NCBI GenBank assembly: GCA_007753915.1
Contig: CP036352.1
Coordinates: 1,364,001-1,428,000, forward strand
DNA: 64,000 nucleotides
DNA from: Phycisphaerae bacterium RAS2
GTDB taxonomy: Bacteria; Planctomycetota; Phycisphaerae; UBA1845; UTPLA1
Direction: 5' to 3'
The first letter of the stretch is position 1; every line of letters starts with the position of its first letter. A program made the position numbers and the translations under genes. Below are positions 38,108-40,495 of this stretch, in pieces. The notes below the pieces were generated by a model. That model was not told the origin of the DNA. It saw only the letters and a list, made by a program, of their open reading frames with translations, and did not search any database.

Positions 38108-39760
38108 TTAACGCTCGCATCCGGTCGCACGCTCACCGAGCAGGGGGGACAATTCGGCGATGCGTTGGTCGACGAGCTTGCGGTTGCGTGCTTCCAGTGT
38201 CAGGCGAAGCGTGGGCGGCGAGCCGGCGCTGCGGAGATTGAAACGCCAGTCGGGATACTTCACCGTCAGCCCGTCGATGCGCTCCAGTTCGGCGTCCGGA
38301 TGGGCGGTGGTGACGGCCTGAATGACCTGGCCGGGATCGCTGCAGTGGAAGCGGATTTCACCGGAGGATCGGCTTCGCAGGAGCGGCCGTGCGAGGGAGG
38401 CGAGGCTGCGTTCACCGGAAGAAAGCAGATTGATCAACTCGATGATCGCGAAGAGAGGCGACTCGGCGCAGGCGGCATCGCGGAAGTAGAACCGCCCGTC
38501 GAGGTCCGCGCCGAAAACGGCGCCAACTTCCGCCATGCGCTTGCGGATATACGACGGGCCGACGCGTTCGCGGAGGACCGCGCCGCCGGCCTGCGTAATC
38601 TCCTCGATCGCGGCTGAATTGAACCGATGGTCAAACACGAAAACATCGCCGGCTCGGCGCTGAAGCATGTCGCGCGCGATCAGGGCGGCGGCGACATCGC
38701 AACCGATCGGCGCGGCCTTGTCGTCAACGAAGGCGCATTGCGACCCATCGGGGCTGAAGGCGACGGCGAAGTCGGCGGCCTCGGCCTTCGCGCGTTTGCG
38801 CAGCGCGCCGAGGGCATCGGCATGCGTCGGGTCTGGCGGACGTGTGAATGAATCGGCGGGCGTGTCGTTCAAGGCGAGGAGCCGCAGGTTGCGCACGCCG
38901 GTCAGCGCGTCAACCAATCGCCGGCCCATCACGCCGTTGCCCGCATCGAAAGCGATGGTGGTTTTTTTCGCCAGCGCCGCGCCGCCGCGAAACCGTGCCC
39001 GGATCGCCGCGTGGTAGGCGTCGGAAAGATCGCGCGCTTCACGGCGCGCCGACGCGCCGGTGATGTGACGCGGGACGCGCGAGGCGATGTCGCGAATGCC
39101 GGTCAGGCCGGTGTCGACGCTGATGGGCATGGCCCGCGCGCCGCAGATGACGAATCCGTGCCGGTCGGCCGGCTCGCAGCCGCCGGTGGCGTATACGCCG
39201 CCGCCCGCGCCGAGGTGCTGTACGGCGAAGGTGAGCATGGGGGCGTCAACGCATCCGAGATGAATCACGTCCATCGCGGTGCTGTGAACGCCTTCGATGA
39301 AGGCATCGAGCAGGGCCGCGCTGTGCGGGCGGGCGTCGTGGGCGACGACAAGGGCGCGGGCGTTGGGGTCGGAGCGGTCCATCGCGCGGAGGCGGCTTTG
39401 CAGGTACTGCGCGGTGGCGTGACCGATGCGCCAGGCGAAGTCGGCGGTAAGCGGCTGCGGGGCGGAGCCGATTATGTCATGCGTGCGAAAGAGGTCTTCA
39501 ACACGGACCTGCGGCGAAGTCGGCATGCTGACGGAAACCGCCCTGGGGGTCGCCGTTGTCGGCGTGGTCGTCGCTCCGGTAGCGGTCAAAGACGCGGGCG
39601 CGGCGGCCTCGTCGTCATTAAATTGACATCCGTGGCATTTTGGGTAGTTGGTCCGGCGGCGGCCGCGACAGATCGCGTTGGAGAGCTTGAATGGCTCCTC
39701 TCCGGGGCAATAGCGGTAGTAGTCGGAGGTGGGTTGAGCGCCGGCCATGACGCCGGGCAT
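38108..39760 (-). CDS. Phosphohexomutase-family protein lacking active-site motifs (probable pseudoenzyme)
   Basis: About 550 residues from an ATG 1 bp after the upstream phosphatase stop. An N-terminal Cys set (Cys18, Cys31, Cys42, Cys45) may bind zinc. Residues ~90-545 follow alpha-D-phosphohexomutases (Leu-Phe-Arg-Thr-His-Asp-Ile-Ile-Gly start; 'FDAGNGVMG'; Phe-Tyr-Phe-Arg-Asp). The diagnostic sites are altered: the phosphoserine loop reads Ala-Thr-Gly-Gly-Cys-Glu-Pro instead of T-A-S-H-N-P, the metal loop reads Ser-Pro-Asp-Gly-Ser-Gln instead of D-G-D-x-D-R, and the sugar loop reads Ala-Asp-Leu-Asp-Gly-Arg instead of G-E-x-S-G-H. A regulatory or binding role is inferred. Confidence 0.75.
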   Translation of the reverse strand: MPGVMAGAQPTSDYYRYCPGEEPFKLSNAICRGRRRTNYPKCHGCQFNDDEAAAPASLTATGATTTPTTATPRAVSVSMPTSPQVRVEDLFRTHDIIGSAPQPLTADFAWRIGHATAQYLQSRLRAMDRSDPNARALVVAHDARPHSAALLDAFIEGVHSTAMDVIHLGCVDAPMLTFAVQHLGAGGGVYATGGCEPADRHGFVICGARAMPISVDTGLTGIRDIASRVPRHITGASARREARDLSDAYHAAIRARFRGGAALAKKTTIAFDAGNGVMGRRLVDALTGVRNLRLLALNDTPADSFTRPPDPTHADALGALRKRAKAEAADFAVAFSPDGSQCAFVDDKAAPIGCDVAAALIARDMLQRRAGDVFVFDHRFNSAAIEEITQAGGAVLRERVGPSYIRKRMAEVGAVFGADLDGRFYFRDAACAESPLFAIIELINLLSSGERSLASLARPLLRSRSSGEIRFHCSDPGQVIQAVTTAHPDAELERIDGLTVKYPDWRFNLRSAGSPPTLRLTLEARNRKLVDQRIAELSPLLGERATGCER

Positions 39761-39761
39761 T

Positions 39762-40340
39762 CTAATGACCGGGCGAGGGCGCGGCCACCCGGCGCGCCGC
39801 GGCGTCCTGGAGATAATTGCGGACATCCGAGCCGAGTTGTTCGTTCTTGAGGCCGGCCTCCCGCGCGCGGCGGACGGCTTCCTCCGCGGAGCAGGCGCCG
39901 CGCGCCCCAAGATAAAGCCCGAACATGGCTCCGGCCCGGCTCCCGCCGGCGCAATGGATCATGACCGGCTCGTTGCCAGCCAGCTCCATCGCTTCGAGAA
40001 AGGCATTGGCCTGATCGGGGGTCATGCGGTCGGACTGCATCGGGACACGGAAGTATTTCATGCCCAGCGATTCGGCCAGCTTGTTCTCGTCGGCCAGCGG
40101 CTCGTCATCACGGCGCAGGTCGATCACGGTCTTTACACCTTCGCGCGCCATGCGGCGCAGGCCGGCTTCGGTCGGCGTCCCGGCGATGTAGTAGCGGTCC
40201 TGATGGACGAGGTTCTTCACGTCAGCCGCGGGTTCCTGCGGCTTGGGCTGTGCGCAGCCGGTGGAGAGAGGAAGCCCAAAGGCGGCCGCGATCATGAGGG
40301 TCGAAATGACGCGGGTTCGAGCGGTGTTTCGGTTGCTCAT
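39762..40340 (-). CDS. Lipoprotein DSP/BLH-type phosphatase
   Basis: 192 residues from the ATG at 40340 (AAGGA 8 nt upstream). Signal peptide with lipobox Leu-Ser-Thr-Gly-Cys (about residues 25-29). The catalytic loop His-Cys-Ala-Gly-Gly-Ser-Arg-Ala-Gly has the C-x4-R spacing of the DUF442/BLH phosphatase group, and 'Gly-Val-Lys-Thr-Val-Ile-Asp-Leu-Arg' supplies the general-acid region. It would hydrolyse phosphate esters outside the cytoplasm. Its stop is 1 bp before the next start, so it is coupled to the mutase-like gene. Confidence 0.82.
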   Translation of the reverse strand: MSNRNTARTRVISTLMIAAAFGLPLSTGCAQPKPQEPAADVKNLVHQDRYYIAGTPTEAGLRRMAREGVKTVIDLRRDDEPLADENKLAESLGMKYFRVPMQSDRMTPDQANAFLEAMELAGNEPVMIHCAGGSRAGAMFGLYLGARGACSAEEAVRRAREAGLKNEQLGSDVRNYLQDAAARRVAAPSPGH

Positions 40341-40495
40341 GGCGAGGTTCCTTTCTGCATCGTGCGGCGCCTGGCCCGGCGCGACAACGCTCATTGTAGC
40401 GCCGGCAGAATTCGGCACAACCTTTTGGACGGGACCGGTGCGATGGATTGGGCACCGGCTGCTTCCTGACTTGCGCGGCTTGGATCAAGCGAATG

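Follow-up and report, generated by a model that had tools for sequence, protein, structure and literature searches.

A putative pseudo-phosphohexomutase with a conserved four-cysteine module in Phycisphaerae bacterium RAS2, from an orthologous family of Planctomycetota in which the active site appears to have been lost several times

Introduction

A known pseudoenzyme of the alpha-D-phosphohexomutase superfamily is Phosphoglucomutase 5 (PGM5, aciculin). PMC7761743 describes it as a vertebrate protein without mutase activity that is a structural muscle protein in humans, and reports that the herring protein still has the phosphorylated Ser and an intact metal site and still binds substrate. The passages of PMC12419801 that we read mention PMM/PGM only as the neighbour of other genes in an operon and do not refer to planctomycetes. 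Our search of open-access papers, judged by titles and the openings of abstracts, found no literature on a family such as the one described here or on its Cys module.

Here we analyse a gene in a stretch of 64,000 nucleotides (the window, whose coordinates are used below) from the genome of Phycisphaerae bacterium RAS2, a single contig of 4.32 Mb; the Phycisphaerae are part of the phylum Planctomycetota. A preliminary description, made from the letters alone, had presented the gene product as a phosphohexomutase homologue with replaced active-site loops. We consider it probable that this protein is a maintained pseudo-mutase with a non-catalytic second function, whose active ancestor already had the Cys4 module and whose reaction was taken over by other mutases.

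Results

The gene is on the minus strand, with its ATG at 39760 and a stop codon ending at 38108, and encodes 550 aa in an intact frame; the upstream ORF stops 1 nt before its ATG. The features of the locus are as follows.

38108..39760, minus strand: putative Cys4-module pseudo-phosphohexomutase, 550 aa (ORF; Pfam PGM_PMM I-III over cut-off; orthologues)
39611..39730, minus strand: four-Cys module, residues 11-50 (Cys18, Cys31, Cys42, Cys45); the four Cys are invariant in 53/53 rows, with no Pfam or PDB match
39497..39610, minus strand: variable linker, residues 51-88; pairs within the dead clade (see below) average an identity of 0.22, dN/dS 0.54 with the congener
39164..39187, minus strand: former phosphoserine loop TGGCEPAD (intact relatives: TASHNPxx), from the alignment
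38738..38758, minus strand: former metal loop FSPDGSQ (intact relatives: FDGDADR), from the alignment
38492..38512, minus strand: former sugar loop GADLDGR (intact relatives mostly GGELSGH), from the alignment
38213..38233, minus strand: former phosphate loop RSAGSPP (intact relatives: RxSNTEP), from the alignment
39762..40418, minus strand: upstream neighbour, bearing a lipobox-like LSTGC, a PTP/DSP-like domain and an HCAGGSR loop (Pfam PTP-NADK and related models over cut-off)

Pfam PGM_PMM domains I, II and III were detected in the window protein at 69.6, 39.9 and 32.3 bits, all above cut-off; domain IV fell below it (13.8 vs 23.1 bits), and the phmmer alignment nonetheless runs through this domain, so that the four-domain PGM/PMM architecture of the superfamily can be followed in the sequence. 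The best solved relative is the X. citri PGM (5bmn; E 1.3e-50, residues 90-541 aligned); 1k35 (E 1e-31), presumably the P. aeruginosa enzyme, also matched. Judged from these matches, the window protein is a full-length PMM/PGM homologue, well beyond chance, which bears out this part of the preliminary description together with its intact frame. The NCBIfam models PRK09542 PMM/PGM and Arch_GlmM gave 229 and 188 bits for the window protein and 451 and 340 bits for an intact relative (L046); both proteins lie below the curated cut-offs (618 and 439, respectively), and neither equivalog model therefore covers them. A contig scan returned three loci, one of which was a true orthologue (L034, 44% identity to the window protein).

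Residue roles, taken from the available part of PMC6443537 and applied to the alignment of the window protein with 5bmn, revealed changes at 10 of 13 catalytic or ligand-contact residues, spread over four loops. In X. citri numbering, the nucleophile pSer97 is replaced by Gly, the Mg ligands Asp237 and Asp241 are both replaced by Ser with Asp239 kept, and further residues are altered (Glu320 to Asp, Ser322 to Asp, His303 to Pro, Tyr9 to His), as are three in the phosphate loop (Ser416 to Ala, Asn417 to Gly and, mildly, Thr418 to Ser); the phosphate-contact arginines Arg414 and Arg423 are unchanged. The phosphoserine motif of active PMM/PGM, T-A-S-H-N-P, is absent and reads TGGCEP, with Ser changed to Gly; the Mg2+ site D-x-D-x-D-R reads S-P-D-G-S-Q, with one of three Asp left; the sugar loop G-E-x-S-G-H reads G-A-D-L-D-G-R; and the phosphate loop R-x-S-N-T-E-P reads R-S-A-G-S-P-P. 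The earlier claim that the phosphoserine, metal and sugar loops had all been replaced is thus confirmed, and the loss extends to a fourth loop, which binds phosphate. Reading of the translation showed neither T-A-S-H-N-P nor D-x-D-x-D-R elsewhere in the protein; their presence had been named as a ground for refuting this claim. At the level of sequence, the phosphohexomutase reaction appears to have been lost in the window's lineage.

The four Cys ahead of the mutase body are spaced CX12CX10CX2C within the family consensus YxRYCPGEExxKISxAxCxGRRRxxFxKCxGCQFND. Across the 53 rows of our alignment A2, whether the copy is active or dead, all four are invariant, as are a single Ser, a single Arg and a single Phe. 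A2 leaves out L079 (it carries the four Cys) and L081 and L082 (cut by contig ends before them); a further alignment, A1, comprised 45 of 54 module sequences. The preliminary description was therefore right about the four Cys, but the module is a family-wide trait and not an addition of the window copy. Pfam searches with four module sequences (E up to 10) matched no family, a PDB search with the module (E up to 1) matched no chain, and neither therefore gave a match to a known zinc-ribbon family; the alignments to 5bmn and 1k35 begin only at window residue 90 or 88, so the module is without counterpart in these structures. A structure model built from two sequences reached a pLDDT of 38, too low to be usable.

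At E<=0.001, the module profile was found in at least 54/61 relatives, at least 51/248 class genomes and at least 62/392 phylum genomes, sets that overlap and whose weakest phylum matches, in short frames, may be due to chance. We read 35 module proteins from outside the order. Fifteen of these make up the complete set of class-level hits beyond the order, and the other 20 loci come from 18 genomes, out of 61 further ones with a hit at phylum level. The module was fused to a mutase in 32 of them, stood in a 171-aa frame in one, and fronted a very long protein in two members of family 114 (family numbers are arbitrary codes): L129:4029-9974, plus strand, the one scanned, in which the Cys module opens a frame of 1982 aa and has 24 PEGA stretches and an Lcl_C domain behind it, and L130:5004-13262, plus strand, in which it heads a frame of 2753 aa. 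These two proteins imply that the module is portable. A 42-aa open frame in the window's own genome (L127:965-1090, minus strand) also resembles part of the module (E 3.7e-4) and is either a remnant or a chance match.

Four conserved Cys/His candidate ligands, as in a zinc ribbon or zinc knuckle, are present. Cys-to-His swaps are typical of metal ligands, and in all four of the distantly related family-51 proteins that we read (L134, L135, L142, L145) the second Cys is a His, as expected at such a position, which lends indirect support to putative zinc binding by the module. The module would most likely bind one Zn2+. The same family-51 proteins have lost the metal and sugar loops and have no domain IV in the alignment, and three of the four keep the Ser at the nucleophile site.

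Orthologues (E<1e-70) were present in 55 of 61 genomes, consisting of the window's own and 60 relatives, at 56 loci with two in G004; none was detected at this threshold in G015, G031, G041, G049, G055 and G058. By simple scripted patterns, all four loops are intact in 31 of the 56 aligned proteins, three are intact in five, and two or fewer in 20, including 14 with none. The window's family 1 contains 14 dead and two intact copies, in addition to L076 (G004:C181), the second, intact copy of G004, which lies on a 3.1-kb contig, groups with family 7 (SH-aLRT 100) and may be foreign, perhaps through contamination. Family 5 is mixed, with 4 of 13 copies intact, and the remaining six families have 24 of 26 copies intact.

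With the loop columns left out of tree building, all 14 dead family-1 members group in one clade (SH-aLRT 100; hereafter the dead clade), beside the two intact members, from G010 and G012. The 13 other orthologues of this clade are 42-86% identical to the window protein and have open frames of 542-646 aa; the single TGA counted in the dead copies of G005, G011 and G016 is their terminal stop codon. The metal loop differs among subclades of the dead clade, and further losses or partial losses occur in families 5, 8 and 2. Parsimony requires at least five changes of the Ser state on the order tree (55 rows) and seven on a phylum-wide tree of 88 proteins, and the state of two or fewer loops, found in 26 of the 88 rows of the latter, at least 10; these are state changes on quick trees with SH-aLRT support only, many weak forks and two long branches (L138 and L142), rather than proven separate losses. 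The active site of one orthologous family therefore appears to have been lost several times within one phylum, with intact sisters surviving. The repeated changes of the Ser state beside the invariant Cys imply that catalysis has repeatedly been dispensable and the Cys module has not.

Codon comparisons (Nei-Gojobori, own script) gave a dN/dS of 0.163 between the window gene and that of its congener, L037, divided into 0 for the module, 0.535 for the linker and 0.134 for the mutase part. A second dead pair, L044-L045, gave 0.053, and two intact pairs gave 0.037 and 0.102. The 33 codons of the Cys module showed zero amino-acid change in either dead pair. Within the dead clade (14 rows), pairwise identity averaged 0.76 over the Cys module, 0.49 over the mutase body and 0.45 over the four loops; the corresponding averages for the intact family 4 (12 rows) were 0.80, 0.72 and 0.95. 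The loops have been released from constraint and the Cys module has not; the mutase body is also less constrained in the dead clade. Two marks of a maintained pseudoenzyme, catalytic residues lost and a gene under purifying selection, are seen here, and this term of the preliminary description is supported by the lost loops, the low dN/dS and the open frames of the other 13 members of the clade.

A recent pseudogene is disfavoured by the dN/dS values of both dead pairs. Slow decay, in which takeover by another mutase would have made the gene superfluous and its open frame only temporary, would be consistent with the presence of another mutase in the genome and with G015, a member of the window's family that has no orthologue and keeps a PgcA-like mutase. 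We nevertheless consider it very improbable, since dN/dS is well below 1 in two dead pairs whose Cys module is without amino-acid change, the 13 other dead orthologues each retain an open frame of more than 500 aa, and conservation of the module roughly equals that in intact relatives. Outright loss of the gene does occur, as the six genomes without an orthologue indicate; this counts against the maintained pseudo-mutase that we favour, as does the relaxed constraint on the mutase body of the dead clade.

A remodelled cleft would be another way to account for a maintained gene: the pocket may have been re-purposed for a new ligand or reaction, making the protein a neofunctionalised enzyme or a sugar-phosphate sensor and not a mere scaffold. 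Of the columns at least 95% conserved in the 31 intact rows, the dead clade retains all 12 that lie in the Cys module and 102 of the 140 that lie in the mutase part, a column being counted as retained if 7 or more of 13 dead rows (L070 left out) share it. Four of the 38 lost positions have been fixed again: Ser194 as Gly (12/13), Glu419 as Asp (12/13), His423 as Arg (12/13) and Asp433 as Glu (13/13), the original residue being present at each in 31/31 intact rows. Re-fixation of Gly194, Asp419, Arg423 and Glu433 in 12-13 of 13 rows, the two phosphate-contact arginines retained in the window protein, and the recurrence in other lineages of the change from Glu to Asp (L137, L138, L146) and from His to Arg (L073, L074, L137) would all suit a new ligand. 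However, this re-fixation is not above background (4/38 lost columns vs 101/462 mutase columns at >=12/13), early fixation followed by slow change would give the same pattern, and the metal loop varies between subclades; we regard a re-purposed pocket as a tentative possibility, and the maintained pseudo-mutase with a second function remains our preferred reading.

The genome of the window encodes three PGM_PMM_I proteins: the window protein, a GlmM of archaeal type (L002; 487 bits, over cut-off) and L128, a 677-aa frame (599 aa used) with loops intact by eye, which we take to be PgcA-like. A PgcA-like mutase (E<=1e-30) occurs in 24 of 61 genomes; it is present alongside 16 of the 19 copies that keep no more than two loops vs 7 of 35 others (tree-blind Fisher p 7e-6; 54 of 56 rows, with L076 and the partly X L079 dropped). 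On independent pairs, of which only 3-5 lie on supported branches, the association was not significant, and for the trait of any loop lost such pairs split about evenly. Four genomes with copies of at most two loops (G003, G004, G028 and G048; 92, 75, 80 and 72% complete, respectively) had no PgcA-like mutase, so takeover by this enzyme is not universal. Outside the order, a further mutase (598-699 aa frame) was present in 12/12 family-51 genomes and in G534, which has the dead copy L138. Another mutase (540-595 aa) occurs in 9/9 family-69 genomes, yet the three copies read from that family are intact, which implies that a second mutase permits loss and does not force it.

GDP-mannose 4,6-dehydratase (E<=1e-60) was found in 42 of 61 genomes, and all but one of the 14 dead-clade genomes, with the window's own, are among these; we therefore reject the idea that catalysis was lost because the entire mannose route had gone. 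Phosphomannomutase activity is hence expected, and this could suggest that the window protein still works as a phosphohexomutase through an atypical active site, all the more as G003, one of these dead-clade genomes with a dehydratase, lacks a PgcA-like mutase. This explanation is very improbable: the protein lacks the nucleophile as well as two Mg ligands, one or more further PGM_PMM_I matches occur in every one of the 14 dead-clade genomes (for G004 the match is L076, perhaps foreign), and five of the six genomes without an orthologue (G015, G031, G049, G055 and G058) keep the dehydratase, so that these five must rely on another mutase. Genomes whose copy is dead or missing should therefore obtain the activity from elsewhere. 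The combination in G003 of a dead copy and a dehydratase is explicable solely by its other mutase match or by sequence missing from this assembly.

The upstream neighbour at 39762..40418 is given as its longest frame, and an ATG at 40340 suits the lipobox better. The usual phosphatase motif is HC-x5-R, whereas the loop of this protein is HC-x4-R; its best NCBIfam match was a sulfur transferase family (TIGR01244) below the cut-off (52.4 vs 85.85 bits), and its identity as a phosphatase is uncertain as a result. Homologues reach E<=1e-8 in 32 of 61 genomes and adjoin the mutase in two only, the window's (G000) and that of its congener (G001). The unusual pairing with a lipoprotein phosphatase noted earlier thus holds for these two genomes, with the phosphatase part in doubt; the check that had been suggested, for conservation of the pair in other genomes, did not show it elsewhere. 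A conserved phosphatase-pseudomutase operon is rejected on the same count of 2/61; the pairing is confined to the genus and is hardly informative as to function.

The neighbourhoods of the family loci, with neighbour kinds named by Pfam from one representative each, contained no shared neighbour pointing to function. M16 peptidase genes lie downstream of the mutase in 35 loci outside the dead clade, in many other families of the order, and a divergent acetyl-CoA synthetase gene belongs to the neighbourhood in 9 of 14 dead-clade loci. Two M16 peptidase genes follow the mutase at L059:4730-7354 (minus strand), by eye one with HxxEH and the other without.

Discussion

A lost active site in a gene that is under selection and has kept its Cys module suggests a second, non-enzymatic job. 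The ancestor of the window protein would have been an active PMM/PGM that already had the four Cys at its N terminus. The sequence of its descendant in the window has lost the nucleophile, two of the three Mg ligands and the sugar and phosphate contacts, with the gene, its frame, part of the fold framework and the Cys module retained under purifying selection. The PgcA-like mutase and the archaeal-type GlmM probably took over the reaction. What is retained despite the loss of catalysis would be the second function, presumably non-catalytic, and we infer that intact relatives share it because they carry the same Cys module. The module may serve in docking, with the mutase body as a structural platform or as a sensor of a sugar-phosphate-like ligand. 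From its sequence, the window protein is probably a Zn-stabilised scaffold or sensor.

A broader reading is that of a bifunctional family of Planctomycetota, in which a zinc-type Cys4 module on a PMM/PGM has a conserved regulatory or scaffold role and the active site is shed repeatedly where another mutase covers the chemistry; we regard the case for this generalisation as evenly balanced. If true, the family would be a natural experiment separating the moonlighting role of an enzyme from its catalysis, its dead, half-dead and intact orthologues would be ready-made separation-of-function alleles, and the question of a second role for a housekeeping mutase would become directly testable. Since Pfam domain models pass the dead copy, PMM/PGM annotation in Planctomycetota should be read with caution.

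The window protein resembles the alpha-D-phosphohexomutases of the PMM/PGM group (5bmn, 1k35) nearly end to end, but it differs from them in the absence of all four loops and in the extra N-terminal Cys module. Its likeness to PGM5, as described in PMC7761743, lies in being a superfamily member predicted to be inactive, as PGM5 is without mutase activity. Herring PGM5 retains the Ser, the metal site and substrate binding, whereas the nucleophile, metal and sugar loops of the window protein are gone, which places it further from catalysis, and the passages of that paper that we read mention no Cys module for PGM5. Furthermore, PGM5 is a paralogue of PGM1, whereas in the family described here the loss appears to recur among orthologues.
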